DNA of 64,000 bases from Frateuria defendens. Lineage in GTDB: Bacteria; Pseudomonadota; Gammaproteobacteria; Xanthomonadales; Rhodanobacteraceae. The DNA lies in NCBI RefSeq assembly GCF_001182895.1, contig NZ_LFQR01000004.1:62001-126000 (forward strand), in the 5' to 3' direction. Positions 3,465 to 30,448 of this stretch are shown one piece after another. Both the position numbers and the translations under genes were made by a program. Each line of letters begins with the position of its first letter. Position 1 is the stretch's first letter. Below the pieces are notes generated by a model. It had not been told where the DNA came from. It saw only the letters and a program-made list of their open reading frames with translations, and did not search any database.

Positions 3465-3519
3465 GGGCCCGCGTCTCGCACTTCATGGATGGATGGCCGC
3501 ACGTTCGTCCGTTCAAAAT

Positions 3520-6161: not shown

Positions 6162-6242
6162 CGCCGCAGCACCGAGCCGGCGCGGCACTGCTGGCCCCGA
6201 GCGGTATCGGACCAGCAGGTTACTGGCGGGCTCGTCTTGGCA

Positions 6243-7433: not shown

Positions 7434-7463
7434 GGCGTAGCCCGACGACAGCCTCCACCCTCA

Positions 7464-8333: not shown

Positions 8334-8405
8334 CTCGATTCTCCTGTGAATTGTCCCCCGGCGGGCTCGACGTCGCGGATAAAGCCGGTGGCATGGCGCG
8401 CGGAC

Positions 8406-8615: not shown

Positions 8616-8630
8616 GGTTTCGTTGCACGC

Positions 8631-9657: not shown

Positions 9658-10563
9658 TCATGAATCGTAACGCAGCGCGGCGATGAGCATGGCCATTGCA
9701 CCCGATGGCTGTCGACGGCTGGGGTAGTAGAGATGAAAGCCCGACCAAAAAGGGCACCACTCCTGTAGCACCGGCACCAGATGTCCTGCACGGACATAAG
9801 GCTCGGCAAGTTCGCTTGGTACGTAGGCGACACCTAGTCCAGCCACCGCGGCAGCAAGGCAATCGAAGAGGCTGTTATAGATGAGTTGGCCGTCGACGTG
9901 GACATTGACCTGCTGTCCACCCTTCTCGAACTCCCAGGCCCATAGCCCGCGATGTGTCATCGTGCGCACGTTGATGCAATTGTGGTGCATCAAGTCCGCG
10001 GGCTTTTGAGGATGCTCGCGCTTGGAAAAATAACGCTTGGTGGCGACGACCGTGAATTGAACCGGCGGCCCAATGCGCACGGCGATCATGTCTTGCGCCA
10101 CCAGTTCGCCGAGACGAACTCCGGCATCGAACTGCTCAGCTGCAAGATCCACATACCCGTTGTCCAGAAAGAGCTCCAACTTGATATCCGGGTACTCCTT
10201 CAAGAAGTTCTTCAGCTTGGGCGCAAGAAGAAGCCGGATCGCATCTTCCGGTGCGGTGATCCTGATCGATCCGGCCGGCTTGTCTCGCAGCTCCGACACT
10301 TCAAGTAGCCCGGCGTCGATTTCTTCCAGCCGAGGGGCAACGGTAAGCAACAGATGCTCGCCCGCTTCGGTAGGGATGACGGCGCGGGAGTTGCGCGCCA
10401 ACAGCCGGACACCCAAGGTCTTCTCGAGCGAGCGCACGGAGTGACTCACCGCCGTCTGCGATAAACCTAGTCGAGCCGCCGCCCGAGTAAAGCTCTTCTC
10501 ACGAGCTACAGCGAAGAAGGCTGTCAGGCCACCAAAGGAGTTGTGTAGAAGGTTGTCTTTCAT
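9658..10563 (-). CDS. LysR-family regulator (CrgA-like)
   Basis: A 301-residue LysR-type regulator with the N-terminal helix-turn-helix (FTRAAARLGLSQTAVSHSVR) and the subgroup markers LRDKPAGSIRIT and QFDAGVRLGE. It is similar to the LysR at 5247-6161 over its whole length and ends with the same HLYYPSRRQPS-type segment. Its ATG overlaps the stop of the truncated integrase (ATGA), and the integrase codons supply its GAGGTG ribosome binding site. Transcription now probably depends on what remains of the integrase promoter. The target is unknown; the SDR/tautomerase remnants downstream are candidates. Confidence 0.85.
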   Translation of the reverse strand: MKDNLLHNSFGGLTAFFAVAREKSFTRAAARLGLSQTAVSHSVRSLEKTLGVRLLARNSRAVIPTEAGEHLLLTVAPRLEEIDAGLLEVSELRDKPAGSIRITAPEDAIRLLLAPKLKNFLKEYPDIKLELFLDNGYVDLAAEQFDAGVRLGELVAQDMIAVRIGPPVQFTVVATKRYFSKREHPQKPADLMHHNCINVRTMTHRGLWAWEFEKGGQQVNVHVDGQLIYNSLFDCLAAAVAGLGVAYVPSELAEPYVRAGHLVPVLQEWCPFWSGFHLYYPSRRQPSGAMAMLIAALRYDS

Positions 10564-10836: not shown

Positions 10837-10913
10837 TGGCGCGCTCGGCGGGATTCGAACCCACGACCTTTGCCTTCGGAGGGCAACACTCTATCCAGCT
10901 GAGCTACGAGCGC
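10837..10913 (-). tRNA. tRNA-Arg(CCG)
   Basis: A 77-base cloverleaf on the minus strand. The acceptor stem GCGCTCG pairs with CGAGCGC, the D-arm is GCTCAGCTGGATAGAGT, the anticodon stem TTGCC/GGCAA encloses loop CTCCGAA with anticodon CCG, the T-arm contains GGTTCGAATCC and the CCA end is encoded. It is the apparent integration target of the island to its left, as the integrase remnant lies just beyond its 3' end. Confidence 0.95.
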
Positions 10914-11118: not shown

Positions 11119-13017
11119 TCAGCGGGCCTTGATCAGCTCGGCCAGGCGGTCGGGCTTGCCGGCGTCGCGCTCCAGGTGCGGGTACTTCAAGCCCTCGTGG
11201 TAGGGCACGGCGAGCGTCTGGTACTCGTCGAAGTTCTTCACCAGCAGCTGGATCGGCGCGTTCTTGTCCTTGGCGGCGGCGGTGATGGCGTCCTTGATGG
11301 TGTCGCCGGAGAACTCCTTGCCGTTGACCGCCACGATCTTCATGCCCGGCGAGAGGCCGGCCTTGAAGGCGGGGCCATCCCACAGCACGTCGGCGATGTC
11401 GCCGTCCTTCGCCACCGACACGCCGAGCGAGAAGCTGAGGTCGGTGAAGCCGCGGCGCGCCTCCACCGCCTTCACCGCGGCCGAGGGCTGGTCGTTGTAG
11501 ACCAGCTTCCAGCCGTGCGAGGCAATGCCGCCGATCAGCGGGCCGTGGCCGTCCAGGCGCTGGCGCAGGTACGGCGCCCAGTCGTAGTGGGCGATGCCCT
11601 CGAGCGTCTTCACCACCTCGTCGAAGGTGTACGGGTTGACCTTCCAGTCGCCGTTGTTCATGCCGAAGAAGGCCTTGCCGAAGTCGTCGATGGTCTTCTT
11701 GTTGCCGGTCAGCTCGCGCAGCTTGCCGTCCACGTCGAGCCAGATCATCTGGCCGGCCGAGTAGTAGTCCTCGCTGGCCTGGTAGTTGCGGTAGGGCAGC
11801 GGGCGGCGCTGGGCGATGATGGGGTCGTTGGTGGTGTCCTGCACGTTGCGCCAGCTGGCCAGGCCCGGGCGGCCCTTGTCGTAGGTGGCGGCGACGAAGG
11901 CGAGCATGTCGCGGGTCTGGTCGGCGTTCCACAGGCCCGAGCGGGCGGCCATCACGTAGCCCCAGAACTGGGTCTGGCCCTCGTACACCCACAGCAGCGA
12001 ATCCTGCATGGGCACGTTGAAGCTCGGCGTGGCGAGGTCGGCGCCGCGGCGGTACTTGCCGTCCCAGGAGTGGTTGTACTCGTGCGCGAGCAGGTCGCGG
12101 CCGAGCGCGGTCTTCTCCCAGTCGGTGAAGTAGCCGGTGCCCACGCCGTTCTCGCTGGAGCGGTGGTGCTCCAGGCCCTGGCCGCTCATCTTCTCGCTCA
12201 GCGAGAGCAGGAAGTCATAGTGGTTGTAGTGGTGCGCGCCGTACATCTTGTACATCTGCTGCACCAGGTTCTGGTGCGCCTTGAGCTGCTCGGGCTTGAT
12301 CTCGAGGAACTTCGGGTCGTCGGCCACGATGTTCAGGTGCACCGGCGCCGCGGCGCCCGGGTCGAGGTCCACGCGCTTGAAGTACTTGCCGGCGTAGACG
12401 GGCGAGTCCACCAGGTCGTCGAAGTCGATGGACTTGTAGGTCACGGTGTTGCCGCGGGTGGAGGCCACGTCCAGCGCGGTGGCCGACTGCCAGCCGGCCG
12501 GATAGGTGGCGCTGACCTCGGCAGGGATGCGGCTGGCGTAGTAGCCGGCCGGGTACAGCGTGGTGGAGCTCCACTGCAGGTTGAGCATCTCCGGCGTCAT
12601 GGTGACGCGGCCCTGGCTCTTGTCCTGCGCGGAGAGGAATTCGAAGTACACCTCCACCTGGCTCGCGCCCTGCGGCACCTCGACGTGGAAGGCGTAGACG
12701 TCGAGCGGGTCGCGCGTCCACGGCAGCACCTGGCCGTTGGCCTTCACCACCAGGCCGGCGAGCTTGTCGATCGGGCCGCTGGGCGAGTGGTGGCCGGGCA
12801 GCCATTCCGGGTAGAGCAGGGTCAGCGGCCCGGGTTGCGCCGGCACCGTCTCGGTGACGCGGAACACGCGGTGGGCGATGTCGGTGGCGTCCACGTGGAT
12901 CTTCAGCGTGCCGTTGAACGACACGTCCTGCGGCGACGGCACGGCGGCGAGGGTGGCGAGACTGGCCGAGCCCAGCACGGCGGCGGCGAGGGCGGAAGCG
13001 AGACGGGTGGCTTTCAA
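11119..13017 (-). CDS. M61-family metallopeptidase with PDZ domain
   Basis: A 632-residue exported peptidase of family M61 (glycyl aminopeptidase-like). The start is taken as TTG at 13017, because GGAG lies 7 bases upstream and a signal peptide follows directly (KATRLASALAAAVLGSAS). An N-terminal beta domain (about 30-250) with the family motif LLYPEWLPGHHSPSGP precedes the zinc site HEYNH at 312-316 and its third ligand Glu346 in WVYEG. A PDZ domain with GPAFKAGLSPGMKIVAVNG covers roughly 510-600. It probably trims peptides in the periplasm. It is a close paralog of the gene at 13930-15840, with the same architecture and a similar C-terminal YHEGLKYPHLER. Confidence 0.85.
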   Translation of the reverse strand: MKATRLASALAAAVLGSASLATLAAVPSPQDVSFNGTLKIHVDATDIAHRVFRVTETVPAQPGPLTLLYPEWLPGHHSPSGPIDKLAGLVVKANGQVLPWTRDPLDVYAFHVEVPQGASQVEVYFEFLSAQDKSQGRVTMTPEMLNLQWSSTTLYPAGYYASRIPAEVSATYPAGWQSATALDVASTRGNTVTYKSIDFDDLVDSPVYAGKYFKRVDLDPGAAAPVHLNIVADDPKFLEIKPEQLKAHQNLVQQMYKMYGAHHYNHYDFLLSLSEKMSGQGLEHHRSSENGVGTGYFTDWEKTALGRDLLAHEYNHSWDGKYRRGADLATPSFNVPMQDSLLWVYEGQTQFWGYVMAARSGLWNADQTRDMLAFVAATYDKGRPGLASWRNVQDTTNDPIIAQRRPLPYRNYQASEDYYSAGQMIWLDVDGKLRELTGNKKTIDDFGKAFFGMNNGDWKVNPYTFDEVVKTLEGIAHYDWAPYLRQRLDGHGPLIGGIASHGWKLVYNDQPSAAVKAVEARRGFTDLSFSLGVSVAKDGDIADVLWDGPAFKAGLSPGMKIVAVNGKEFSGDTIKDAITAAAKDKNAPIQLLVKNFDEYQTLAVPYHEGLKYPHLERDAGKPDRLAELIKAR

Positions 13018-13259
13018 GATGCGCTCCGGAGCGGCGGCCGCGCGTGCGGCCGGATGGAATGAGACCTGAACGGACGATGCTAGCCGCGCCGCCCGCCGCG
13101 CCACCCTGCCAAAGGTCATGCCCGAGCCTGAACGCAAGCCCCCACGCGCGCCGCGCCGAAAGACTCGCGCAAGCCGGGGAACCGAAGGTGACACCCGCCG
13201 CGCTCCCCGAGCGGCCACCGTTTCCCCCAAACGGCTGACATACAACAAGGAGCATTCCC

Positions 13260-16073: not shown

Positions 16074-17567
16074 CTACGACCGGCGCGACGCCTCCAGCTT
16101 GCTGTGCCGGATGCCGTAGCCGAAGTACACCACCAGCCCCAGCGCCATCCACACCAGGAAGCGCTCGATGGTGATCCACGGCAGGCCGCCGAGCATCGTC
16201 GGGCGGCCGTCCGCGAACCACGGCCAGCCGATGATGAGGAACAGCGAGAACAGCATGCCCGCCGGCGCCACCAGCCACAGCGCCGGGGTGCGGAAGCTGC
16301 GCGGCAGCTCGGGGCGGCGGATACGCAGCAGCAGCACCGAGCCGCAGATGATGATGAAGGCGGCCAGCGTGCCGATGTTGACCAGCTCGGCCACCTGCCC
16401 GATCGGCAGGAAGCCGGCCACCGCCGCGGTGAACACGCCGAGGATCAGGGTAGGACGCGCCGGCGTGCCGTACTTGGGGTGCACCTGGGCGAACCACTTC
16501 GGCAGCAGGCCGTCGCGCGCCAGCGCGAACCAGATGCGCGCCGCGCCCAGCATGAAGGCGAACAGCACACTGGTGATGCCGGTGATGGCCGCGAGCGAGA
16601 TCACCCCGCGCACCCAGTCCAGCCCCAGCGCCTTGAAGGCGGCGTCCACCGGCGCGGGGCTGTCCAGCTGCGCGTACGGCACCATGCCGGTCAGCACCAG
16701 CGAGATCAGCACGTAGAGCGCCATCGACACCGCCAGCGACAGCAACACCGCGCGCGGCAGGTCGCGCTGCGGGTGGCGGGCCTCCTCCGCCGCGGTGGTC
16801 AGCGTGTCGTAGCCGAACACGGCGAAGAACACGATGCTGGAGGCGGTGAGCACGCCGCCCCAGCCGAAGTGGCTGCCGCCGGCATCGGCGACGGCGGCGG
16901 GAATGAAGGGGTGCCAGTTGGCGGTGTTGACGTAGAACGCGCCCACGCCGATCACCAGCGCCACGCCGATCACCTTGATCGCCACGATCAGCGTGTTGAA
17001 GCGCGCGCCCCATTCGGTGCGCAGCGTGAGCAGCACCGCGATCAGCAGCGCGATGGCCGCGGCGACCACGTTGAACACCTTGCCGCTGCCCGGGTGCGCC
17101 GGGTCGTAGGCGCCCTGCGCCCATGCCGGCAGCTGGACATGGAACAGCTGCTCCAGCAGCGCCTGCACGTAGCCGGACCAGCCGATCGCCACCACCGCCG
17201 AGACCAGCGCGTACTCGATCAGGAGATCCCAGCCGATGATCCACGCGAACAGTTCGCCCAGCACCGCGTAGCCGTAGGTGTAGGCGCTGCCGGTGACCGG
17301 GATCATGCCGGAGAATTCCGCATAGGCCAGCGCCGCGCACGCGCTGCCCAGGCCCGCGACCAGGAAGGACAGCACCACCGCCGGCCCCGCGTTCACCGCC
17401 GCCTGCTGGCCGGCGAGCACGAACACGCCCACGCCGATGATCGCGCCGATGCCGATGGCGGTGAGCTGCCACACCCCCAGCACGCGGCGGAAGTCGCGCG
17501 CGCCGCCGGCCTCCGCCTGCAATTGCTCGACCGACTTGTGGCGCGTCAGCTTGCTCAAGAAGCCCAT
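16074..17567 (-). CDS. APC-family amino acid permease
   Basis: A 497-residue inner-membrane transporter of the amino acid/polyamine/organocation family, YfnA/cationic amino acid transporter branch. Twelve or more hydrophobic helices are visible. Helix 1 carries the substrate-binding GIGAIIGVGVFVLAG, and helix 6 has FFAVFGYDTLTTAAEEARHP, where the family has FDxxxxxaEE. GGGAAAGG lies just before the ATG. It sits 233 bases upstream of the second M61 peptidase on the same strand, so released amino acids could be its cargo, but its exact substrate is not evident. Confidence 0.85.
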   Translation of the reverse strand: MGFLSKLTRHKSVEQLQAEAGGARDFRRVLGVWQLTAIGIGAIIGVGVFVLAGQQAAVNAGPAVVLSFLVAGLGSACAALAYAEFSGMIPVTGSAYTYGYAVLGELFAWIIGWDLLIEYALVSAVVAIGWSGYVQALLEQLFHVQLPAWAQGAYDPAHPGSGKVFNVVAAAIALLIAVLLTLRTEWGARFNTLIVAIKVIGVALVIGVGAFYVNTANWHPFIPAAVADAGGSHFGWGGVLTASSIVFFAVFGYDTLTTAAEEARHPQRDLPRAVLLSLAVSMALYVLISLVLTGMVPYAQLDSPAPVDAAFKALGLDWVRGVISLAAITGITSVLFAFMLGAARIWFALARDGLLPKWFAQVHPKYGTPARPTLILGVFTAAVAGFLPIGQVAELVNIGTLAAFIIICGSVLLLRIRRPELPRSFRTPALWLVAPAGMLFSLFLIIGWPWFADGRPTMLGGLPWITIERFLVWMALGLVVYFGYGIRHSKLEASRRS

Positions 17568-17650
17568 CGGCCTTTCCCCATGGCAAAGCCCAGGATCATA
17601 GCGAACGCCGGCCGGCACGCCATGCTGCGATGCGCGGACCGGCCTGGTTG

Positions 17651-17812
17651 CCCTGCGCCGCCTTCGGCGCAGGGCGAAACGTGGCGCCTTGCTCTGCTTC
17701 CTCTCCCTCTGGGGAGAGGACCGAGGTGAGGGGCGGGTGCTCGCGGGAAAGCTCGCCCGAAGCCGCGCCATCGCCAGCGTGCCCCCTCGCCCCAACCCTC
17801 GGGGGAGAGGGA
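17651..17812. repeat. Palindromic intergenic repeat cluster
   Basis: The 309-base gap before pmbA's end contains a 10-bp hairpin (CCCTGCGCCG / CGGCGCAGGG, 17651-17674). It also holds an inverted pair of CT-rich elements: CCTCTCCCTCTGGGGAGAGG near 17700 and CCCTCGCCCCAACCCTCGGG near 17784. Similar CTCTCCC/GGGAGAG elements occur at 26.1, 37.5, 39.8 and 57.4 kb. They are non-coding REP-like repeats. No gene is seen in the rest of the gap. Confidence 0.6.
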
Positions 17813-17876
17813 GCAGTCCGCGCAGCACATCGCATCCCGTTCTCGCCATGCCCCGGAAAGCAGGCAAGAACGACAC

Positions 17877-19238
17877 TCAAGTCCCCGCCACCGTCATCCG
17901 CTCGACCAGGATCGAACCCGAGGCGATGGCGCCGCGCCGATCCACGTCGTTGCCCACCGCCGCGATGCCGAGGAACATCTCGCGCAGGTTGGAGGCGATG
18001 GTGATGCCTTCCACCGGGTAGGCGATCTCGCCGCCCTCGACCCAGAAGCCGCTGGCGCCGCGCGAGTAGTTGCCGGAAACCGGCGACACGCCCTGCCCCA
18101 TCAGCTGCGTCACCACCAGACCCGTGCCCATCTCGCGCAGCAACGCCTGGAAACCGTGCATGCCCGGTTCCAGCAGCAGGTTGCGCACGCCGCCGGCGTT
18201 GCCGGTGCTGCGCAGGCCGAGCTTGCGGGCGGCGTAGCTGTCCAGCACGTAGCGTTGCAGCACGCCGCCGTCCACCAGCAGCGAGCCCTGGGTGGCCACG
18301 CCCTCCTCGTCGAAGACGGCGGACGCCATGCCGCGCGCGAGGTGCGGGTGCTCCACCAGGCGCACGAAGGCGGGAAACAGGCGCTTGCCGAGGTGGTCCG
18401 CATACAGCGTGGCGCCGTTGTAGAGCGCCTTGCCCTCCACCGCCGCGACGAAGTGGCCGAGCAGGCCGCGCGCCAGCTCCGGCACGAACAGCACCGGGCA
18501 CTGCCGCGTGCCCAGGCCGCGCGCGCCCAGCCGCGCCAGCGCGCGCTCGGCGGCCAGGCGGCCGATGCGCCCGGGCAACTCCAGGTCGCCCGGCGCGCGG
18601 GCGATGTCGTACCAGCTGCCGCGCTGCATGCCCTCGCCGTGGCCGGCGAGCAGGGAGCAGGACAGCTCGTGCCAGCTCTCGCGCCGGCGGCCGACGAAGC
18701 CGTGGCTGTTGGCGTAGCCGCGCAGCACGCTGCCGCTCTCCACCTCGGCGCCGTCCGAGTTGGTGATGCCTTCCTCCTCGCGCCCGGCGGCCTCGATGCC
18801 GCGGGCCAGTTCCACCGCCTCGTCCACCTCCAGCGCCCACGGGTGCCAGAGGTCGAGCTCGGGCGCCTCGGTGGGGTACAGGGTGGGATCGGGCAGGCCG
18901 TTGAACACGTCCGGCTCGGCCAGCCTGGCGATGGCGCAGGCCTTGGCCACGGTCTGGCGCACCGACCCGGGGTCGAAGTCGGCGGTGCTCGCCACGCCGA
19001 GGCTGCGGCCGACCTGGGCGCGCACCACCAGCTGGCGGTCGAGCCGGCGGGTGAGGGTTTCCACCTCGCCGTGGCGCACGCCCACGGCCAGGCTGCGGCG
19101 CAGGTGCGAGGACGCCGAGGCCTCATTGGCGCCGGCGGCGCGACACTGCGCCACCGCCTCCCGGCACAGCTGCGCCAGGGCGGCCGCGTCGTCGGCCGGC
19201 GCCGGCGGCCGCGCCGCCGCATGCATCACGCTGTTCAT
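17877..19238 (-). CDS. pmbA: Metalloprotease subunit PmbA (TldE)
   Basis: A 453-residue member of the TldD/PmbA family, the non-catalytic half of the TldD-TldE protease that trims unfolded or modified peptides in the cytoplasm (microcin B17 leader and CcdA in E. coli). Length and features match canonical Pmb[42 protein letters not shown], and a C-terminal [20 protein letters not shown]. As expected for PmbA, it lacks the HExxxH motif. Its ATG overlaps the tldD stop (ATGA), so the two are translationally coupled. Confidence 0.93.
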
Positions 19239-20677
19239 GCCGCGGTCCCTCCCACCGTCATGCCGTCGATCTTGAGCGTGGGCTGGCCCACGCCCACCGG
19301 CACGCTCTGGCCCTGCTTGCCGCACATGGCGATGCCCTCGTCCAGGGCGAGGTCGTTGCCGATCATCGACACCCGCGAGAGCACCTCCGAGCCGGCGCCG
19401 ACCAGGGTGGCGCCCTTCACCGGCGCGGTGATGCGGCCGTCCTCGATCAGGTAGGCCTCGTTGGCACAGAACACGAACTTGCCGGTGACGATGTCCACCT
19501 GGCCGCCGGCGAAGTTCACCGCGTAGAGGCCCTTCTTCACCGAGCGGATGATCTCCTCCGGGTCGCGCTCGCCGGGCCACATGTAGGTGTTGGTCATGCG
19601 CGGCATCGGCAGCTGCGAGAAGGATTCGCGCCGGCCGTTGCCGGTGGGCGCCGTGCCCATCAGGCGCGCGTTCATGCGGTCCTGCATGTAGCCCTTCAGG
19701 ATGCCGTCCTCGATCAGCACGGTGCAGGCACTCGCCGTGCCCTCGTCGTCCACGCCGAGCGAGCCGCGGCGGCCCTCCAGCATGCCGTCGTCCACGATGG
19801 TGACGCCGGGCGCGGCCACGCGCTCGCCGAGGCGGCCGGCGAACACCGAGGTGCCCTTGCGCGCGTAGTCGCCCTCCAGCCCGTGGCCCACCGCCTCGTG
19901 CAGCAGCACGCCGGGCCAGCCGGGGCCGACCACCACCGGCATGCTGCCGGCCGGGGCGTCCACCGCGTCGAGGTTGACCAGCGCGCGGCGCACCGCCTCG
20001 CGCGCCCAGGCCTGGGCGCGGCCGCCGCAGCGCAGGGCGTTCAAGCCGTAGCGGCCGCCGCCGCCGGCCGTGCCTTCCTCGCGGCGCCCGTGCTGCTCGG
20101 CGATCACGCGCACGTTGAGGCGCACCAGCGGGCGCACGTCGGCGGCGAGGGTGCCGTCGGAGGCGGCCACCAGCACGGTGTCGGCGTTGGCCGAGAGCGA
20201 CACCATCACCTGCTTCACGCGCGGGTCCTGCGCGCGGGCGTAGGCGTCCAGCTCGCGCAGCAGGGCGATTTTGTCGGCGTCGGGCAGGCTGTCCACCGGG
20301 TCGAGCGCCGGGTACAGCGCGTGCGCGCCGGCCACCGCCAGCGCGCGGCCGGCGCCCTGGCCGCCGTCGCGCGCGATGCCGCGCGCCGCCCCGGCCGCCT
20401 CCATCAGCGCCGGCAGGTCGATGGATTCGGCGTAGGCGAAGCCGGTCTTCTCGCCGCTCATGGCGCGCACGCCCACGCCCTTGCGCAGCGCGTGGCGGCC
20501 GCTCTTGACGAGGCCGTCCTCCAGCGACCACGCCTCGTGGCGCTCGTGCTGGAAGTAGAGGTCGGCGGCGTCGATGGCGGGCCCCATCAAGCGTGCGAAC
20601 ACGCCGTCGAGGTCGCGGACATCGAGGCCGCCGGCGCCGAGCAGCTGTTGCCCGGCCTGGATCATGGCTTGGTTCAT
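19235..20677 (-). CDS. tldD: Metalloprotease subunit TldD
   Basis: A 480-residue catalytic subunit of the TldD-TldE peptidase. The zinc motif HEAVGH (His260, Glu261, His265) is intact, and the C-terminal Cys ligand is in [10 protein letters not shown]-terminal [17 protein letters not shown] and [13 protein letters not shown] are typical of TldD. It starts 50 bases after the TonB receptor on the same strand and overlaps pmbA by four bases, so all three may be one operon. The open frame extends far upstream through the receptor gene by chance; the ATG at 20677 follows the family start. Confidence 0.93.
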
Positions 20678-20727
20678 CGCAACCGTTCCCGTGCGCGGGC
20701 GCCGCCGGCGGCGCCCGCGGCTTGCTT

Positions 20728-23472
20728 TCAGTCGAAGTGCTTGTTGAATTCCAGGCTCACCGCGCGGCCCAGTGCGTTGTAGACCTGCGAGTTGTAGCGC
20801 GGGTAGGACACCCAGCCCTTGTGCGGCGGGTCGCGGTCGAACAGGTTGTTGACGTACAGGCCCAGCGACATCTGCCGGGGCAGCTGGTAGCTCACGCTGG
20901 CGTTGAACACCGTCCACGCGCCGGTGTGGCCCGGGTCGCCGTAGACGCGGCGGTTGGCGTCGGAGATGCCGTAGCCGAAGGCGGCCAGCGCGAGGTTGGG
21001 CGTGCGGCCGTAGCGCACCGCGAACAGCGTGGTGGACACCGGACCCACGGTCCAGTTGGCGCTGGCGTTGACGATGCTCTTGAACTGGCTCACCTGCCCC
21101 GTCGGGTTGTGCAGCACGTCGATCATCGGCTGGTTGCTGGCCGACTGCACCTTGTGGCGGAGCATGTCGTTCCAGTTGAGCGAGAACTGGAACTGGCCGA
21201 GGTGCTCCGTGCGCAGGCGGTAGTCCGCGCCGGCGGTGATGGTGGCCAGCGTCTCCTGCGCCACGTTGAAGTAGCCGCCGGTGATCATCGCGATGCGACC
21301 GGTGGCCGGGTCGCGCTGCACGCGCGCGATGGCGTCGCCGCAACCCGGTAGCACCGCGGCGGTGCCGCCCGCGCGGCAGCTCGCCTCGTCGGCCAGGATG
21401 GTGGGCACGGTGATGGCGCGGATCTCGTCCTGGATGCCGATGCGCAGGTAGTCCGCGTGCAGGCTGAAGGCGTCGCTGGGCGACCACACCGCGCCCACCG
21501 TCCACGACTTGGCCGTGGTGGGCTTCAAGCCGAGGTTGCCGGTGACGGTGGAGCCCATCACGTAGCGGCAGCGCGAGCTGGTGCGCGACACGCCGAGCTG
21601 GTCGCACCGGTACAGGTCGTAGGTGTTCTGCCGGCCCACGGTGGTGCCGGTGTAGAGGTAGGCCAGGTCCGGCGCGCGGAAGGCGGTGGAGTAGCTGCCG
21701 CGGATCAAGAGGCTGTCGAACGGGCGGAATTGCAGGCCCGCCTTCCAGGTCGGCTTGGAGCTTTGCACGCCGGAATAGCTGAAGCGGTCGTAGCGGCCGG
21801 CGAAGGTGGCGGTGAGCATCGGCCACAGCGGCAGGTCCAGCTCCGCCGTCAGCGCGCCGTGGTTGCGCTTGCCCAGGCTCGGCTGCTGCGAGCCGTACTG
21901 GAACAGGCCATTGACGTAGTCGGGCTCGGGCTGGTCGCGCCAGGATTCCTTGCCGCCCTCGGCCAGCACCGCGAGGCCGGCCGCGCCGCCGGGCAGCTGG
22001 AACAGCTCGGTATTGGTGAGCTTGCCGTACACCGACTGCGTCCAGGTGAGGGCGCGGCGGGTGCGGTAGTCGGCGAAGGCGGCGTACTGGTCCGGCGTGA
22101 GCGGCACGAACACGTTCTGGATGTTGCCGCCGTAGAGGCCGTTGAGGTACGCCTCCATCTTGCCCATCACCGGCAGGTAGGCGGACTGGCTCAGCCGGTA
22201 CTCGGACAGCACGTAGTACAGGTCGTAGTTCCACTTGCTCTCGCCGATGCCGCCGCGCAGGCCCGCGGTGAGGTCGTACTGGTTCGAGCTGTTGTTGACG
22301 AAGTTGGCCTGCCGCCCGCCCGTCTCCTCCGGCGCGAACTCGCGCGAGACGAAGTAGTCCTCGCCCGCGGGGCTGGTCACGGTGTCGTAGAAATACGTGG
22401 TGCCGGCGTTGGAGCCGTTGCGCGCCACGGTGTAGTCCGCGTCGGCGTAGGCGGTGAGATGGGGGGTGAAGTCGTGGCTGACCGAGAGGTAGCCCGACAC
22501 CGACTTGCTGGCCGGCACGAAGGTGCTGGTGTAGGAGCCGGCGTAGGGCGAGGCGCACCAGTCGCCGGCGTCGGCCACGCTGCCGCCGAACAGCCCTCCC
22601 ATCGCGCGGCAGCCGTCGGCCGGGCGGATGTAGTTGTCGTGGCTGTCCTGCGCGTAGGCGTCGTCGTCGTAGGGGTAGTACTTGGTCAGGCGGCGGTCGG
22701 TGCCGTACACCGGGTTGCTCTTGCGCCACTGCAGGGCGTAGACCACGCGGGTGTCCCGGTTGCTGAAGCCGCCCACCAGCTGCGCCTGGCGGTTGAAGCC
22801 GCCGCCCTGGGTGTAGTTGCCCACGCGCACGTTGAGGTCGATGCCCTTCACGTCCTTCTTGAGCACGATGTTGACCACGCCGGCGATGGCGTCGGAGCCG
22901 TAGATGGCCGACTGGTTGCCGGGCAGGATGTCGATGTGGTCCACCATCGCCATCGGGATGTTGGCCAGGTCGGTGATGTTGCCGCCGCCGCCGGTGTTGT
23001 AGGTGAGCGGGTAGTTGGCCACCGGGTGGCCGTTGATCAGCACCTTGGTGAAGCTGGGCGAGAGGCCGAACAGGCTCACGACCTTGGCGTTCTGGGTATT
23101 GCCCGAGCCGATCGGCGAGCCGTCGCGCACGCCGCCGGTGGCGAACGGCGTGGCGCGCAGCGCCTCGGCCACGGTGGCGAAGCCGTTCTGCTTGATCTGC
23201 GCCGCATCGAGCGTGAGCGTGGGCGAGGCGCCCTCGCTCTGCGAGGCCGGCAGCAGGCTGCCGGTGACGGCCACCACGTCGAGCTTGTCGGCGTGCTCGG
23301 CCATCGCCGCGCAGGTCTTCTGCTGCGCTGCCTTCTTCAGCGGATCGGCGCACGAACCCTGCCCGTCCGATGGCGGCGCGGCGTCCTGCGCCGGTACCGC
23401 GGCGGCATGCACGGCCGCCATCCCTCCCCACTGCAAGGCCAGGCCGATGGCCACGAACAAACGCTTCTTCAT
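20728..23472 (-). CDS. TonB-dependent outer-membrane receptor
   Basis: A 914-residue receptor. Signal peptide 1-24, then an N-terminal Cys-containing segment ([14 protein letters not shown]), a plug domain ([38 protein letters not shown]) and a large beta-barrel ending in FNKHFD. The TonB box is probably [18 protein letters not shown] precedes the ATG. It is directly followed by tldD and pmbA. About 220 bases upstream, on the same strand, lies an SbmA/YddA-type ABC transporter, which suggests a peptide-like ligand. No siderophore or vitamin gene lies nearby, and the ligand is unproven. Confidence 0.88.
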
Positions 23473-23692
23473 ACGGTCCCCTCCAACCCTCTCGATCAAA
23501 CGAATCAGACGTGCTCCGCGCCGGAAAAAGGCACGCAGCGACTCCCCGGCCGCTGCGCCATGCGAAGCGGCACCCATGCGTTCCTCTTGTCGCCGCCGCA
23601 GCCGCGCCCCCCACGGCATCGGCGGCCTTCTCCTTTGGCCGGCATGGAGGCGTCCCTCCGCCGGCGATCCCCGGGCCAGGCCCGGCCTTGCC

Positions 23693-25456
23693 TCAAGAGC
23701 CCACGGCGACGGCCGCGGGCGTCGTACAGCCGCCGCCCAGGACCTCGCCCGTCCGCGGCGGCGAAAACGACAGCTTGCGCTGGTGCAGCGCGATCACCGA
23801 CTCGCGGTGCGCCACGCTGATCACGGTGCAGGCGGGCAGCCGCTCGCGCACCTGCTGGTAGAGCCAGGCCTCGTTGGCGCTGTCGAGCGCCGAGGTGGAT
23901 TCGTCCAGGAACAGCGTGTCCGGCCGCTGCAGCAGCACGCGCGCGAAGGCCAGGCGCTGCTGCTCGCCGGGCGAGAGGCGCTTGCTCCAGTGCGCCGTCT
24001 CGCCCAGCAGTGCGGCGTAGTGGCCCAGCCGGCAGGTCTGCAGCGCCTCGGCGCAGGCCTCGTCGCCGAATTCGTCGGCCATGCCGGGGTAGCACAGTGC
24101 ATCCTTGAGCGTGCCGATGGGCACGTAGGGCCGCTGCGGGATGAACATGCTGCGGCGCCCGGACGGCATCTCGATGCGCCCGCTGCCGTGCTGCCACAGC
24201 CCGGCCAGCGACAGCAGGAAGGTGCTCTTGCCGCAGCCGGAGGGCCCGACGATGACGGAGGTGGAACCGGCCTTGATGTCCATCGAGGCCGGCTCGCTCA
24301 GCACGCGGCCGTCCGGGCAATGCAGCGCGAGGTCGTAGGTGCGCAGCACCTCGTCCTGGCTGTCGGCCACCACGATGTCGCGCGGATTCTCCGGCTCGTC
24401 CAGCAGGCGGTCGAACTCGACCAGGCGCGACAGCGCCGCGCGCACGTCGGCCAGGTCCGGATAGTTCTGGATGAACCACAGCAGGCCGATGCGCATCTGG
24501 TTGCAGGTCTGGAACAGCCGGGTCACCCCGCCCAGCGACAGCGTGCCGGCGAAATAGGCGCCCGCGCCGAGCAGCCACGGCACCACCTGCGCGGCCTGGC
24601 TGCTGCCCCAGCTGGAGAGGTTGACGCCGAAGGTGCTGCGCACGACGTGGCGCCAGTTCTGGCGGATCGCGGCGAAGGCGCCGTCGAGCCGGCGCTGCTC
24701 GGCGCGCTCGCCGGCATACAGCGCGATCGGCTCGCTGTTCTCGCGCACGCGCACCAGCGCGAAGCGGTAGTCGCCCTCGCGCGCCTGCTGGTGGTAGCGC
24801 GCGCGCAGCAGCGGCCGCCCCAGCCATTCGACCAGGCCGGTGCTGGCCAGGCAGAACAACAGGAACACGAACACCACCAGGCCGGGCATGGCCACCGTAT
24901 GGCCGCCCAACTGGTACTGGATGGTGCGCGAGAGGTTCCACAGCACGCCGGTGAAGACCACGACGATGCCCATCTGGTGCAGGAAATCGAAGGCGTTCTT
25001 GAGCCCCTTGTCGCCGGTGAGGATCAGCATGTCCTCGGACAGGCGCTGGTCGGGGTTGTCGATCGCGCCGCTGCGGTCCAGGCGGTAATAGGTTTTCTTG
25101 TCCAGCCAGCGGCCCAGGAAATGCGCGTTCATCCAGGTGCGCCAGCGCATCTGCAGCCGCTGGATGATCCACTGGTTCACGGTGTAGGTGACCACCCAGG
25201 CCGCCATGATCGCCGCCTCCAGCGCGATCTGCCGCCAGAACACGCCGGCATGGCGCGCGCCGAGGGCGTCGAACATCACCCCGTTGATGCGGTTCTGCAG
25301 CAGGCTCTGGTAGACCATGACGCCGTTCAGCGCCGGCACCAGCAGCAAGAGCCCCCACGCCATCCACTTGTCGTCCGAGCGCCAGTAGCCGCTCAGCAGG
25401 CGCCAGGCCGCGCGCGGCGTGGTCTTGGGTGTCGGCTTGTCGGTGCTGGCGTTCAT
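23693..25456 (-). CDS. ABC transporter, fused permease/ATPase (YddA/SbmA-like)
   Basis: A 587-residue half-transporter with an N-terminal ABC_membrane_2-type domain (about six helices; LLQNRINGVMFDALGAR, WRTWMNAHFLGRWL and YYRL are hallmarks shared with SbmA/BacA) and a C-terminal ATPase: Walker A GPSGCGKST, signature LSPGEQQR, Walker B TLFLDEST, and switch His in SVAHRES. SbmA/BacA relatives import antimicrobial peptides, bleomycin or cobalamin. This version carries its own ATPase, as in YddA and Mycobacterium Rv1819c. The ATG at 25456 has GGAG 5 bases upstream; an in-frame ATG 15 codons earlier is less likely. It belongs with the receptor and tldD/pmbA by position. Confidence 0.85.
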   Translation of the reverse strand: MNASTDKPTPKTTPRAAWRLLSGYWRSDDKWMAWGLLLLVPALNGVMVYQSLLQNRINGVMFDALGARHAGVFWRQIALEAAIMAAWVVTYTVNQWIIQRLQMRWRTWMNAHFLGRWLDKKTYYRLDRSGAIDNPDQRLSEDMLILTGDKGLKNAFDFLHQMGIVVVFTGVLWNLSRTIQYQLGGHTVAMPGLVVFVFLLFCLASTGLVEWLGRPLLRARYHQQAREGDYRFALVRVRENSEPIALYAGERAEQRRLDGAFAAIRQNWRHVVRSTFGVNLSSWGSSQAAQVVPWLLGAGAYFAGTLSLGGVTRLFQTCNQMRIGLLWFIQNYPDLADVRAALSRLVEFDRLLDEPENPRDIVVADSQDEVLRTYDLALHCPDGRVLSEPASMDIKAGSTSVIVGPSGCGKSTFLLSLAGLWQHGSGRIEMPSGRRSMFIPQRPYVPIGTLKDALCYPGMADEFGDEACAEALQTCRLGHYAALLGETAHWSKRLSPGEQQRLAFARVLLQRPDTLFLDESTSALDSANEAWLYQQVRERLPACTVISVAHRESVIALHQRKLSFSPPRTGEVLGGGCTTPAAVAVGS

Positions 25457-25814
25457 CGGGACTCCATCGCTGCGGACAGCGGGTGGCCGGGTGTCTGGCA
25501 TGTCCGGCGGGCGGACACTCGGTCATGACTCCCGTTGCGGCTCCGCGAGGAGGCGACGGTTGGCATGGATATGCATGTCGAGGGCGTCCGGGCGGCGCGC
25601 GCCCGGAGCCTCGACCCTGATGCGCTACGGCTCCCCTGGCCCGCCGCGGCGGGCCGGTCGGTGCCGAGGGTGGCCGACGCCCCCTGGCGCGCTTCACCCG
25701 TCTTGCAGATGGCCCACCCGCCGGCATTCGGCATGCTGCGCAGTGTGCGGGGCGGCCCCATGTCCAGGGTCCAATGGCGATGGGTCATATGCATATGGCC
25801 CATCGCCATTCCGG
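25457..25814. repeat. Gene-free stretch with a 38-bp near-perfect palindrome
   Basis: No gene is evident between the ABC transporter and copZ. At 25773-25810 lies an inverted repeat. The outer arms AATGGCGATGGG and CCCATCGCCATT are exact complements, the core ATATGCATAT is self-complementary, and only one of 19 pairs (T/G) mismatches. It starts 4 bases after the copZ stop. As RNA it would form a long hairpin without a T-run. It could be a 3' end or processing structure for the cop transcript or a protein binding site. Confidence 0.65.
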
Positions 25815-26027
25815 TCAGGCGGCCAGCACGGTGAAGCCGGCGTCCTCGATGAGGGTCTTGATCGCCGATTCGTTGATCGCGCCGTCCTCGTAGCTCACGC
25901 TCACCTGCTTGGTCTCCAGCACGATGTCGGTGTTGTTCACGCCGTCGGTGCCGTCGAGCAGGCGCTTCAGGCGGCCCGAGCAGCCGCCGCACTTCATGCC
26001 GTCGACCTTCAGTTCGATCTGGCTCAT
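25815..26027 (-). CDS. copZ: Heavy-metal-binding chaperone (CopZ-like)
   Basis: A 70-residue single HMA domain. The metal site is MKCGGCSGR with Cys13 and Cys16 (MxCxxC), and the C-terminal part EDAGFTVL matches the usual fold end. It carries Cu(I), or another soft metal, to the ATPase encoded upstream in the operon. AGGAGG is 8 bases before the ATG. It follows copA by 153 bases on the same strand; a hairpin lies in the gap. Confidence 0.88.
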   Translation of the reverse strand: MSQIELKVDGMKCGGCSGRLKRLLDGTDGVNNTDIVLETKQVSVSYEDGAINESAIKTLIEDAGFTVLAA

Positions 26028-26116
26028 GGTGTTGTCCTCCTGGGGTGAGTGGATGGATGGGGAAACGGGGGCGGGGTGTTGGCGCCGGCTCCCGAGGTGT
26101 TCAAAACCCGCTGCCT

Positions 26117-26146
26117 GCCCCCTCCCCTGCCTGCAGGGGGAGGGGC
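26117..26146. repeat. CT-rich hairpin between copA and copZ
   Basis: CCCCTCCCC and GGGGAGGGG arms around CTGCCTGCA-type loop sequence. It is one of the window's recurrent CT/GA-rich intergenic palindromes and might attenuate transcription from copA into copZ. Confidence 0.5.
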
Positions 26147-26180
26147 CGCGGGCCTCGATGGCAGGTGTTCGGGCACGCAC

Positions 26181-28619
26181 TCAGGCCCGGGCGCGCCAGC
26201 GGTTGAGCAGCAGCGAGTTGCTCACCACCGAGATGGAGCTCATCGCCATCGCCGCGCCCGCGATCACCGGGTTGAGCAGGCCGAAGGCCGCCAGCGGGAT
26301 GCCGAGCACGTTGTAGAGGAAGGCGAAGAACAGGTTCTGGCGGATCTTGCGCAGGGTGGCGGCGGAGAGGTCGATGGCCGCGGCCACGCCGTTCAAGTCG
26401 CCCTTCACCAGCACGATGTCGGCCGCCTCCACCGCCACGTCCGAGCCCGCGCCGATGGCGAAGCTGACGTCCGCGGCGGCCAGCGCCGGCGCATCGTTGA
26501 TGCCATCGCCGACCATGCCCACCTGGCCCTTGCCCCGGTGGCCGGCCTGCAGGCGCCTGACCTCCTCCGCCTTGTCCTGCGGCAGCACCTCGGCGCGGAA
26601 GGCGCCGATGCCGGCCTGCGCGGCGATGGCGGCGGCGGTGTGGCGGTTGTCGCCGGTGAGCATCACCACGTCGAGGCCGAGCTGCTTGAGGCGCTGGACC
26701 GCGGCGGGCGAACTGTCGCGCAACCGGTCGGCGATGCCGAGGTAGCCGATGGCGACGCCGTCCACCGCCACGCCCACCACCGTCTTGCCCTGGCCCTGCA
26801 AGGCCTCGGCCTGGGCGCGCAGCGCGGCCAGCGGCGCGGGCTCGGCGGCCGGGTCGCCGGCGAACCAGCCCGGCGCGCCGAGCTGCACGCGGCGGCCCTC
26901 GACCTCGGCCTGAAGGCCCTTGCCCGGCACGGTGTCCATGTGCGCCATCGGCCGCGGCGCGATGCCCTCGGCCTTGCCGTGCTCGGTGACGGCGCGGGCC
27001 AGCGGGTGCTCGGAGCCGCTCTCCAGCGTCACCGCCAGGGCCAGCAGGTCCGCGCGCGCCACGCCCGGCGCGGGCAGCACGTCGGTAAGCTCGGGGCGGC
27101 CGCGGGTCAGCGTGCCGGTCTTGTCCACGATCAGCGCGCGCAGCGCACGGGCGCGCTCCAGCACCTCGGCGTTGCGGATCAGGATGCCGGCCTTGGCGCC
27201 CATGCCGGTGCCCACCATGATCGCCGTGGGCGTGGCCAGGCCCAGCGAGCACGGGCAGGCGATCACCAGCACCGCCACGGCGTGCACCAGCGCGGTGGCG
27301 AATTCGTGCGTGAGCGCCCAGGTGGCGAGCAGGGTGATCAGCGCGATGCCCACCACCACCGGCACGAACACCGCGGCGATCTTGTCCACCAGGTGCTGGA
27401 TCGGCGCCTTGGAACCCTGCGCCTCGTCCACCAGGCGGATGATCTGCGCCAGCAGCGTGTCGGCGCCCACGCCGGTGGCGCGCGCGCGCAGCAGGCCGTT
27501 CTGGTTCACCGTGGCGGCGTAGACCTTGCTGCCCGGCTCCTTCTTCACCGGCATGCTCTCGCCCGAGAGCATCGCCTCGTCCACGCTGGAGCGGCCGCTC
27601 AACACCTCGCCGTCCACCGGCATGCTCTCGCCGGCGGCCACCACGAACACGTCGCCCACCATCAGGGTGCCCGCATCCACCTCCACCAGCTCGCCGCCGC
27701 GCTCCACCTTGGCGGTGCGCGGGCGCAGCGTGAGCAGGGCGCGGATGGCGGAGGACGTCTTGCGCTTGGCGCGCGCCTCCAGCATGCGGCCGCACAGGAT
27801 CAGCATGATGATCGCCGCGCTGGCCTCGAAATAGACGTGCCCCGGCAGGGCGAACAGCGTGAGCACGGTGCTGTAGAGGTAGGCCATGCTGGTGCCCAGC
27901 ACCACCAGCACGTCCATGTTGGCGGTGCCCGCGCGCAGCGACTTGAACGCCGCCTGGTAGAAGCGCGCGCCGATCCAGAACTGCACCGGCGTGGCCAGCA
28001 GCCACTGCACCCAGCGCGGCAGCATGTCCGCCATGGCGTGGCCGGGCATCGACAGGCCGTGGCCGAACATGGCGACCATCTGCGCCAGCAGCGGCAGCGT
28101 GAGCGCCACCGCCGCGGCGAACATCAGGAGCTGTTTGCGCCAGGCCTTGAGTTCCCTGGCCTCGCGCGCGGCCAGCTCGGCGCCGTCGAGGTCGCGCTGC
28201 TCACTGGCGTCGAAGCCGCCCTTGCGGATGCGCGCGATCAGCCCGGCCACGTCGATCAGCGCTGGGTTGTACTCCACGCGCGCCTTGGCCGAGGCGAAGT
28301 TCACCGCCGCGTTCACGCCCGGCAGCTTGTTGAGGCCCGACTCGATGCCGGCGGCACAGGCCGCGCAGCTCATGCCGGCCACGTCCAGCATCGCCACCTC
28401 GGTGGGCACCGAGAAGCCCGCCTTGCCGATGCTCTCCACCAACCTGGCCGGCTCCACCTGGCGCTGGTCGTACTCCAGGTGCACCCGCTCGCTGGCGAAG
28501 TTCACCTGCGCCTTCACCGAGGGCAGCTTGTTCAGCACCTTCTCGATGGTGGTGGCGCACGCCGCGCAGCTCATGCCGCGCACGGGGAAAGTGGCAACGG
28601 TGGCGGTCGCCTGACTCAT
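26181..28619 (-). CDS. copA: Copper-translocating P1B-type ATPase
   Basis: An 812-residue inner-membrane pump with two N-terminal HMA domains (Cys18/Cys21 and Cys85/Cys88, both GMSCAAC), eight membrane helices, the Cu(I) site CPC at 455-457 (IACPCSLGLATP), the phosphorylation motif DKTGT at 499-503, HP in SEHPLARAV, and MVGDGINDAPAL. This is the P1B-1 pattern specific for Cu(I)/Ag(I) export. Its ATG overlaps the stop of the MerR-type regulator gene (ATGA), so the two are coupled. Length is normal for the family. Confidence 0.95.
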   Translation of the reverse strand: MSQATATVATFPVRGMSCAACATTIEKVLNKLPSVKAQVNFASERVHLEYDQRQVEPARLVESIGKAGFSVPTEVAMLDVAGMSCAACAAGIESGLNKLPGVNAAVNFASAKARVEYNPALIDVAGLIARIRKGGFDASEQRDLDGAELAAREARELKAWRKQLLMFAAAVALTLPLLAQMVAMFGHGLSMPGHAMADMLPRWVQWLLATPVQFWIGARFYQAAFKSLRAGTANMDVLVVLGTSMAYLYSTVLTLFALPGHVYFEASAAIIMLILCGRMLEARAKRKTSSAIRALLTLRPRTAKVERGGELVEVDAGTLMVGDVFVVAAGESMPVDGEVLSGRSSVDEAMLSGESMPVKKEPGSKVYAATVNQNGLLRARATGVGADTLLAQIIRLVDEAQGSKAPIQHLVDKIAAVFVPVVVGIALITLLATWALTHEFATALVHAVAVLVIACPCSLGLATPTAIMVGTGMGAKAGILIRNAEVLERARALRALIVDKTGTLTRGRPELTDVLPAPGVARADLLALAVTLESGSEHPLARAVTEHGKAEGIAPRPMAHMDTVPGKGLQAEVEGRRVQLGAPGWFAGDPAAEPAPLAALRAQAEALQGQGKTVVGVAVDGVAIGYLGIADRLRDSSPAAVQRLKQLGLDVVMLTGDNRHTAAAIAAQAGIGAFRAEVLPQDKAEEVRRLQAGHRGKGQVGMVGDGINDAPALAAADVSFAIGAGSDVAVEAADIVLVKGDLNGVAAAIDLSAATLRKIRQNLFFAFLYNVLGIPLAAFGLLNPVIAGAAMAMSSISVVSNSLLLNRWRARA

Positions 28620-29137
28620 GGGGACGCTTTCCTTTTGTCGCTTTGGCAGCAGGAGGCTTCGGCCGTCTGGGCGGGCCGGGGGCTCCTGGCTTCCAGGTTC
28701 TGGAACTCGACCACGGGCACGTCACCGCGCTGCATGGACTGGATGATCGGGCAGCCATCGGGCGAGCCCTCGCCGGGGCAGGCCTCGACCAGCCGCGCCA
28801 GGCCGTTGCGGATCTCGGTGAGCTGGGCGATGCGCTCGTCCAGCTCCGCCAGCCGCTCGCGGGCGCGCTGGTTGACGCCTGCCACGCCGGCGTCGTGGTC
28901 GCAAGAAAGGCTGAGCAGGTCGCGGATTTCCTCGAGGGTGAAGCCGAAATACTTGGCGCGGCGGATGAAGCGCACCTGCTCCACCGCCTGCCGGTCGTAC
29001 TGGCGGTAGCCCGAGGCGCTGCGCACCGGCGGCGGCAGCAGCCCTTCGCGCTCGTAGAAGCGGATGGTGTCGATGGCCACGTCGGTCTCCTTGGCCAGGA
29101 CGCCGATCGTGATGCGTGCGGTGTTCGTTCGCGACAT
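28616..29137 (-). CDS. MerR-family metal-responsive regulator
   Basis: A 173-residue MerR-type regulator. N-terminal helix-turn-helix with ITIGVLAKETDVAIDTIRFY, then GYRQYD and the long dimerisation helix. Metal-binding candidates are Cys79 (LSLSCDHDAG), Cys120 and Cys129 (ACPGEGSPDGCP), plus a Cys163-Cys164 pair in the tail. Cys at position 79 with two later Cys nine residues apart recalls MerR/ZntR-type sensors of divalent metals more than CueR, which has Ser there. It is nevertheless the first gene of a Cu-ATPase operon and presumably activates the promoter at 29176-29207. Confidence 0.85.
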   Translation of the reverse strand: MSRTNTARITIGVLAKETDVAIDTIRFYEREGLLPPPVRSASGYRQYDRQAVEQVRFIRRAKYFGFTLEEIRDLLSLSCDHDAGVAGVNQRARERLAELDERIAQLTEIRNGLARLVEACPGEGSPDGCPIIQSMQRGDVPVVEFQNLEARSPRPAQTAEASCCQSDKRKASP

Positions 29138-29175
29138 GTGCCCACCCTCGTGTGGTTGCCGATGCCTTGGGACCC

Positions 29176-29207
29176 ATCCTAGGGTCTGGAGGCAAGTCCA
29201 GTGTCAA
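29176..29207 (-). promoter_or_regulatory. MerR-type promoter and operator of the cop operon
   Basis: On the minus strand: -35 TTGACA (29207-29202), an over-long 20-base spacer, and -10 TAGGAT (29181-29176), 39 bases before the regulator's ATG. The spacer holds the dyad CTGGA-N6-TCCAG (29186-29201). A 19-20 base spacer with a central dyad is the hallmark of MerR-activated promoters. The regulator gene is inside its own controlled operon. Upstream (29208-29465) I see no gene or other clear site. Confidence 0.8.
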
Positions 29208-29465
29208 GCGCTTTTTTTCGGCCCGCCGCCGGGGCGGCGGTGCGCCCACGGCAGCGGCGGGCCGGCCGGGAAACGGCCTGGCGCAACGGTTCGACGGGCG
29301 CGCCACGCGCGACGGCACCGGCGAGACTAGCGTCTGGACGTCCAAACGGGATGGCGTAAAGGCTTACGGCAGGACGCGGCAGTTTGTCGCATGCCGGCGT
29401 AGCGCGGCGCGCGGCGGCCCCGCCCAGCGGCACGGCGGTTCGCGCGGCCGCGGCGAGCCGCCCGC

Positions 29466-30384
29466 TCAGCCCGCGGCGAGGCGCCTTGGCGGCGAACGGG
29501 CATCGCGGATGCGCAGCCACCACGGGAGCGGCGCGGCGGCCGCCATCGCCACTGCCAGCGGCACCGCGATACGGACGTCCAGACGTCCGTCGTCCATGGC
29601 GGCAACCGCCAGCAGGGCCAGCACCCCCGCCAGCAGGCGCACACTCTCCGGCCAGGCCGCCCAGCGGCGCCCTTCCAGCAGGGCGCCCAGCGCCCACAGC
29701 GCGAAGGCGAGATAGGCCGCGCAGCCCAGCAGCCGCGGCAGCGAAGCGGTGGCGGCCAACGCGAGGAAGCCCATGCCCAGCGCCAGCAGCAGCGCGAACT
29801 GCAGCAGGCAGTAGGCCGCCATGCCGCGCGACAGCGGCGGTTCGAACGCCTCTCGGTGCAGGTCGAACGGCGGCTTGGGAAACCGCGCGGCCACGTCCGC
29901 CGGCCCGGCGGCTTCAGCCACACCAGCAGCTTGTCGCGCCAGCGGCGCGCATGCCGCATGTCCCTGGCCCAGTACACCTCCAGGTTCGCCCACAGCGGGT
30001 TCCAGCTGCGCAGCGGCGCGCGGGTGCCGTACCCCGGCGGGCCGGCGTCGTCTTCCTCGACGAAGGTGCCGAACAGGCGGTCCCACAGGATCAGGATGCC
30101 GCCGTAGTTCTTGTCGAGGTAGCGCGCGTTCGCCCACGTCCACACGCTGTCCGCCGGCAGATGGAACAGCGCGAAGTGCGCGACGCACCGGCATAGATGC
30201 CGATGTTGAGCACCTTGGCGAACACGCCGGCGATCTGCGAGAGCATGCCCAGGCTCAAGCTGTTGATCGCATCGTCCAGCCGGTACGCCTTGCGCCCGCG
30301 CCGGCGCGCGAGCAGCCATTCGACGGCGATCAGCACGAAGAAGCCGGGGATGGCCCAGGCCATGATGCGTTCGGCGGTGTCCAT
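29466..30384 (-). pseudogene. Sterol desaturase/fatty acid hydroxylase, decayed
   Basis: The ATG at 30384 opens an intact N-terminus of a sterol-desaturase-superfamily membrane hydroxylase (MAWAIPGFFVLIAVEWLLAR to NIGIYAG). A frame change leads to FALFHLPADSVWTW, which joins directly to NARYLDKNYGGILILWDRLF. In intact relatives the whole di-iron histidine-box domain lies between these two segments, so the catalytic part is deleted. Another frameshift near 29895 precedes a membrane-rich C-terminal tail (YCLLQFALLLALGMGFLAL) ending at 29466. The product cannot be active. Confidence 0.8.
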
Positions 30385-30448
30385 GGCCGCACTATGTGGC
30401 CGCCGCGCGGCGCTCGAAAGCGGCGGCGCAGCACGCCGCGGCGCCGCG

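Follow-up and report, generated by a model that had tools for sequence, protein, structure and literature searches.

Does a row of four minus-strand genes in the genome of Frateuria defendens constitute a dedicated route for the uptake and trimming of peptides, or did its members come to lie side by side by accident? The stretch that holds the row, hereafter the window, spans 64,000 nucleotides (G000:C268:62001-126000) of a 4.19-Mb genome, and a sequence-only reading of it had proposed a module made up of an ATP-binding cassette (ABC) transporter, a TonB-dependent receptor and the two subunits of the TldD/PmbA protease. The gene block is real and is missing from several relatives, and a role in peptide import and trimming is plausible but unproven. 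At somewhat less than even confidence, we favor the view that an acquired receptor-tldD-pmbA operon, probably together with the ABC transporter gene, would serve as an accessory uptake-and-trimming unit for a peptide-like ligand, both the ligand and the function being ones that we infer.

Gene Order and Spacing

The coordinates bear out the row as it had been described. On the minus strand, a gene for an ABC transporter with membrane and ATPase domains on a single chain (23693..25456; 587 aa, P0004) is followed by a gene for a TonB-dependent outer-membrane receptor (20728..23472; 914 aa, P0005), a second tldD (19235..20677; 480 aa, P0002) and a second pmbA (17877..19238; 453 aa, P0003). The 50-base gap between the receptor stop and the tldD start is confirmed, as is the overlap of tldD and pmbA, which amounts to 4 bases; the distance from the ABC gene to the receptor gene, a figure absent from the earlier account, is 220 bp. 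Spacing of 50 bp and -4 bp argues for a single receptor-tldD-pmbA transcript, and the three genes would thus form one tight operon, of which the adjacent upstream ABC gene is a probable, though not a certain, partner.

A GC hairpin of 11 pairs between the receptor stop and the tldD start (20694..20719, no strand assigned) is not exceptional, with 39 of 200 shuffles folding equally well (z -0.85). A riboswitch in the receptor leader was considered and rejected: at the gathering score, Rfam matched only a tRNA in the window and nothing upstream of the receptor, and the leader is no more stably folded than shuffled sequences (z 0.92 and 0.54).

A Second TldD/PmbA Pair

Both Tld proteins exceed the Pfam cut-offs for the three PmbA_TldD domains (PF01523, PF19290, and PF19289). 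The window TldD reaches 681.3 bits with the NCBIfam TldD model (cut-off 513); the window PmbA scores 406.6 bits with the PmbA model, under the equivalog cut-off of 438, and is a divergent paralogue. In E. coli, the metal of TldD is bound by a Cys together with both His of HExxxH, and TldD/E is a heterodimer whose narrow channel admits unfolded N termini, which are cut without sequence preference (PMC5810440). Aligned to E. coli TldD (5nj5), the window TldD, the predicted metalloprotease subunit, retains HEAVGH, the C-terminal Cys and the surrounding 18-residue stretch. Its partner carries the TldE/PmbA domain set, with no HExxxH in the sequence as checked by eye.

Of the four Tld proteins encoded in the genome, the two on contig C271 appear to be the ordinary pair. 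The tldD of C271 directly adjoins a YhdP gene (PF13116), and its product and the window TldD share 77% identity; the C271 and window PmbA proteins share 55%. An IS1595-type transposase gene separates the C271 tldD from pmbA (L086, 12167-13174). Since a separate tldD (beside yhdP) and pmbA exist, housekeeping does not depend on the window pair. No signal peptide was seen by eye on either window protein, so that the pair should be cytoplasmic and the peptide must reach the cytoplasm.

PmbA was matched (E <=1e-20) in 146 of 147 family genomes, and more than once in only two, the source genome and G043 (34% identity). Beyond these copies of its own, the nearest PmbA is in G087, a partial match at 62%, the others being at most 59% identical. 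A wider contig search, which may omit records of the source genome itself, used six exact eight-residue patterns and matched 391 stretches, 333 of them encoding relatives; the highest PmbA-search identity among the best 80 of these 333 was also 59%.

Could the second pair instead belong to a system that makes a ribosomally synthesized and post-translationally modified peptide (RiPP), with TldD/E as the leader remover? Such a role has its precedent in microcin B17, whose leader TldD/E removes (PMC5810440). Among RiPP enzymes, the genome search covered YcaO and gave no match, with a positive E. coli control, a result that makes it less likely that the organism itself produces azole peptides. The earlier account had found no precursor peptide gene, and none beyond chance emerged here; we consider a RiPP-making system extremely unlikely. 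The only small open reading frame on the same strand between the ABC and receptor genes (46 codons, from 23645, with a Shine-Dalgarno-like start by eye) is within chance as a candidate precursor, as 36% of 2000 base-shuffled stretches hold an equally long frame on either strand.

Divergence of the Accessory Pair

Trees were built from 27 of 62 TldD rows and 59 of 105 PmbA rows, those with locus numbers no higher than L034 or in the range L092-L125. The end branches of the window proteins are long, reaching 0.44 for TldD (median 0.043) and 1.24 for PmbA (median 0.1). Neither protein groups with its own C271 copy: TldD is placed with Dokdonella (support 85/79, not starred) and PmbA with G004 (95/92), long rows such as these being placed unsurely. 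These results agree best with an ancient duplication, or with transfer between members of the family, and with rapid change afterwards, most of all in PmbA.

The change is also seen at conserved positions, defined as columns with conservation of 97% or more among the other rows and controlled with left-out rows. The window TldD keeps 242 of 262 such columns (92%; lowest of 15 controls, 95%) and the window PmbA 158 of 185 (85%; lowest of 42 controls, 88%). In PmbA residues 266-281, a region chosen after inspection, 5 of 10 conserved columns are altered (P 0.007); by eye, this region corresponds to the segment following the metal motif of TldD. Strong divergence of the non-catalytic TldE suggests that the pair may have been retuned to a particular substrate.

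Receptor and Transporter

The receptor exceeds the Pfam cut-offs for its Plug and beta-barrel domains (PF07715 and PF00593). Its predicted structure has a mean predicted local distance difference test score (pLDDT) of 76.7, with the N-terminal 69 residues below 50, and the best folds for the model are PirA, PfeA, FepA, BtuB, and Cir. Homologues (E <=1e-120) occur in 86 of 299 genomes of the order, the best outside the source genome being 41-42% identical. In at least three of 20 loci, a related receptor adjoins an S9 peptidase (L071, L072, and L080), as judged with neighbor Pfam domains checked for one gene each of eight receptor loci. This recurrent pairing of receptor and peptidase lends weak support to a peptide ligand.

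The transporter exceeds the cut-offs for PF06472 (3e-45), PF05992 (6.4e-19), and PF00005 (8.2e-18), and its closest solved relative over nearly its whole length is 6tqe (residues 15-563, 9.4e-92), which we take to be Rv1819c. The sequence-only reading had called it SbmA/YddA-like. The second half of that name stands and the first does not, because the protein carries the PF00005 ATPase domain and is thus not SbmA; it belongs with the YddA/BclA kind, as assigned from its domains and the 6tqe match. SbmA/BacA (SLiPT) proteins are described as devoid of a nucleotide-binding domain, BclA proteins as peptide transporters carrying an ATPase domain, YddA as the same kind of ABC protein with unknown function, and Rv1819c as a cobalamin transporter overlapping functionally with SbmA (PMC13316013).

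An Extra Block of DNA

The sequence-only reading had drawn support from neighboring M61 peptidase genes and an amino-acid permease gene. These genes are present, at 11119-13248 and 13930 to about 15860 for the M61 genes and at 16074-17570 for the permease, yet they offer no evidence for the module, since they occur together without Tld, receptor or ABC homologues in 14 of 16 relatives. Of 59 family genomes, 57 gave a permease match. Among the 16 permease loci compared (homologue threshold E <=1e-12, coverage >40%), 14 have one or more M61 genes in the 3 kb that follow the permease downstream (L211 is cut by a contig end, and L219 has none), and in none were homologues of pmbA, tldD, the window receptor, the ABC gene, copZ, copA, and cueR found.

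The window gene at 29520-30393 is a fatty-acid hydroxylase gene (PF04116, as identified on the counterpart in G007). In four of the 16 loci (L213, L217, L221, and L226), its homologue is found upstream of the permease at a distance of 0.1-0.5 kb, which grows to about 2.8 kb in L222 and about 8.5 kb in G007. In the remaining 10 it was not seen at this threshold, at which it was possibly missed, the query being the broken window copy. Given that the two flanks are near-adjacent in the first four of these loci, window positions 17571 to about 29500, or about 12 kb, are extra DNA, holding pmbA, tldD, the receptor and ABC genes, copZ, copA, and cueR. The best reading is that the source lineage acquired the block, in one step or in several. 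The window copy of the hydroxylase-like gene (minus strand) is broken, with pieces in different frames and about 110-130 middle residues without counterpart; its homologue is a single open frame in all six relatives compared. Mobile-element ends were sought and rejected: among 20 of 24 direct repeat families and 16 inverted pairs of at least 18 bases within 17560-29500, none pairs the ends of the block.

The three remaining genes of the block are also on the minus strand. They encode a copZ-like metallochaperone (25815..26027; HMA domain over cut-off, CopZ models best but under cut-off), for which membership in the module is not shown, a copA-like copper P-type ATPase (26181..28619; TIGR01511 over cut-off) and a CueR-like regulator of the MerR family (28616..29137; PF13411, with CueR as the best NCBIfam model at 129.7 bits, under its cut-off of 147.4). 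Their presence on the same strand within the extra block would agree with copper-peptide salvage, in which the whole block imports a copper-binding peptide and digests it in the cytoplasm, the freed copper passing to CopZ and CopA. We judge this very unlikely. The nearest copA relatives (70% and 68% identical), in two genomes, have no ABC, receptor or Tld genes alongside; the receptor and Tld genes are likewise absent from all five further copA loci compared; copZ and the ABC gene are some 360 bp apart; and no copper-named receptor is among the 50 folds listed for the receptor model. One locus (L239, in G006) holds cueR-copA-copZ with a partial, 31% ABC match about 4.5 kb away. Just after copZ, at 25773-25810, lies a loopless, near-perfect palindrome of 38 bp without a second copy in the window.

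Occurrence of the Combination Elsewhere

The combination of receptor, ABC and Tld genes was found in the source genome alone among the relatives searched. In 20 stretches around the 21 best receptor homologues, neither TldD nor PmbA was detected (E <=1e-6). In 37 other family genomes with both receptor and PmbA matches, compared by eye from two homologue lists, the two were never within 100 kb on one contig, a result weakened by fragmented assemblies. A class search found more than two Tld C-terminal domains in 18 of 276 genomes besides the source, yielding 21 accessory-Tld loci: 20 stretches (from 17 of the 18 genomes and from G043; G560, whose third match is under cut-off, was omitted) and L085 (also from G043). 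A receptor lies near a Tld gene in one of the 21 (L173), with an opposite-strand gene between it and the nearest Tld gene; three of these stretches are shorter than 5 kb and could hardly show neighbors, and the receptor profile, built from relatives of the window receptor, possibly missed distant receptors. The same profile detected no receptor frame of more than 400 residues in the best 80 of the 333 stretches (3.4-22 kb) of the wider contig search. Locus L173 (6901-14342, in a genome of the same order) holds three accessory Tld genes, one with a start that by eye resembles a twin-arginine translocation (Tat) signal, and which is perhaps of an exported Tld type.

With no second instance in these searches, the linkage appears private to the source species within the data searched. 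The sequence-only reading had itself held that adjacency confined to this strain, coupled with separate transcription, would count against it, and adjacency in this strain alone is what was found, as far as the single genome of the genus covered allows. Titles and abstract openings of the literature on Tld, SbmA/YddA and TonB uptake describe no receptor-Tld operon. The locus is a new arrangement of known families.

This restricted distribution heads a series of observations that weigh against a shared pathway. The 50 best folds listed for the receptor model comprise siderophore, heme, B12, transferrin and colicin-type receptors, none pointing to a peptide. A gene from a single tetratricopeptide repeat (TPR)-sulfotransferase cluster adjoins related receptors more commonly than a peptidase does, in seven of 20 loci (L068, L069, L070, L073, L074, L075, and L079, with neighbor Pfam domains checked in L074 and L075). 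The genome holds 35 Plug-domain receptors, seven of them on G000:C268, a contig of 191 kb, and chance adjacency is therefore not far-fetched. Long single rows are not peculiar to the window proteins either (TldD L109, 0.48; PmbA L122, 0.72). Finally, compared with their own C271 copies, nonsynonymous (dN) and synonymous (dS) divergence are 0.17 and 0.24 for TldD and 0.41 and 0.52 for PmbA, high ratios that could reflect relaxed constraint; third-position GC contents (GC3) of 0.96-0.98 squeeze silent change and temper these ratios, and an attempt to detect selection by dN/dS was not decisive.

Several of these observations could mean that the genes are fortuitous neighbors, a receptor for an unrelated nutrient having landed ahead of a surplus, drifting Tld pair at a site that readily accepts genes, with no shared pathway. 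The corresponding gap in G007, where a different receptor, FecR and an extracytoplasmic function (ECF) sigma factor lie between the hydroxylase and permease genes, gives this idea some substance, as do the many receptors, the unconserved combination and the long PmbA branch with its dN and dS values. We nevertheless hold it to be unlikely, although a serious candidate: the close spacing (50 bp) and the overlap (4 bp) favor a single transcript, the frames are open, and TldD retains its metal site and 242 of 262 conserved columns.

The position of the transporter is weighed separately. Between the ABC and receptor genes, a terminator-like hairpin followed by TTTTT (23533..23558, minus strand), found by a hairpin scan, may mark the end of the ABC transcript, and is a further point against a common unit; the number of terminator-like sites in the scanned region (5, versus 3.4 with a standard deviation of 1.9 in shuffles) is within chance. 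In a class search at 1e-100, ABC homologues were found in 19 of 369 genomes, the source included; none of 19 other ABC loci has a homologue of the window receptor within about 1.5 kb, and in one (L209) a convergent tldD adjoins the ABC gene. The 220-bp gap with its hairpin and these loci would suit two units, the receptor-tldD-pmbA operon on the one hand and, on the other, an ABC gene that belongs elsewhere, with its own transcript or as a general importer. We regard this division as rather improbable, as the ABC gene shares its strand and its extra block with the other three, and a Tld pair in the cytoplasm must have some importer in the inner membrane.

A Possible Uptake-and-Trimming Unit

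What remains of the dedicated peptide uptake and degradation proposed from the sequence is its parts, their order, the intact metal site of TldD, the existence of a second Tld pair and the lack of a YcaO match in the genome; the support from the M61 and permease genes and the SbmA label are lost, the combination recurs in none of the relatives searched, and a terminator-like hairpin separates the ABC and receptor genes. In the accessory uptake-and-trimming unit that we tentatively prefer, the receptor would carry a peptide-like ligand over the outer membrane with TonB energy, and the ABC protein of the YddA/BclA kind would presumably move it into the cytoplasm, inward transport being the predicted direction. 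There, the TldD/TldE heterodimer, if active like its E. coli counterpart, would take an unfolded N terminus and cut off short peptides at the metal site. A more specific version, in which a single peptide, modified and perhaps able to bind metal, is imported and digested by a dedicated pathway, the second pair with its retuned TldE being linked to a receptor and an ABC transporter of its own, is a long shot.

If this narrower version were true, TldD/E would act on an imported rather than a home-made peptide, for which titles and abstract openings of the literature provide no example. Because the accessory pair could be removed with the ordinary one left in place, the association of a second Tld pair with a receptor, next to such an ABC transporter, makes this genome a suitable setting for studying the function of both.

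Other Features of the Window

The left part of the window (267-10563) has GC3 values of 0.60-0.87, against at least 0.9 in most genes to the right, and ends beside a tRNA gene (10840-10913, minus strand). It contains short-chain dehydrogenase, SMP-30, major facilitator superfamily (MFS), aldo/keto reductase and LysR genes, and may be an island at the tRNA. Further right, GH20 hexosaminidase, TonB receptor, glucokinase-family and MFS genes are grouped at 45853-53822 in what looks like a cluster for amino-sugar use.

Comparison with Known Systems

The window pair shares with E. coli TldD/TldE both subunits, the domain set and the metal-site residues. It differs in being a second pair, encoded by overlapping genes behind a receptor gene, and in a PmbA that scores under the NCBIfam cut-off. 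The microcin B17-type (azole) systems have YcaO as their criterion, for which the source genome has no match. Other TonB receptors of the order belong to the same family as the window receptor and are 34-42% identical to it, but the peptidase beside at least three of 20 related receptors is an S9 enzyme, whereas that beside the window receptor is TldD/E. The proton-driven importers SbmA and BacA resemble the window transporter in the membrane domain (PF05992 over cut-off) and, unlike it, have no ATPase domain. Like YddA, BclA and Rv1819c, the window transporter joins a PF06472-type membrane domain to an ATPase in one chain, a kind that is rare in its family, where it was found (E <=1e-60) in five of 147 genomes, the source included, the best other match being 38% identical.

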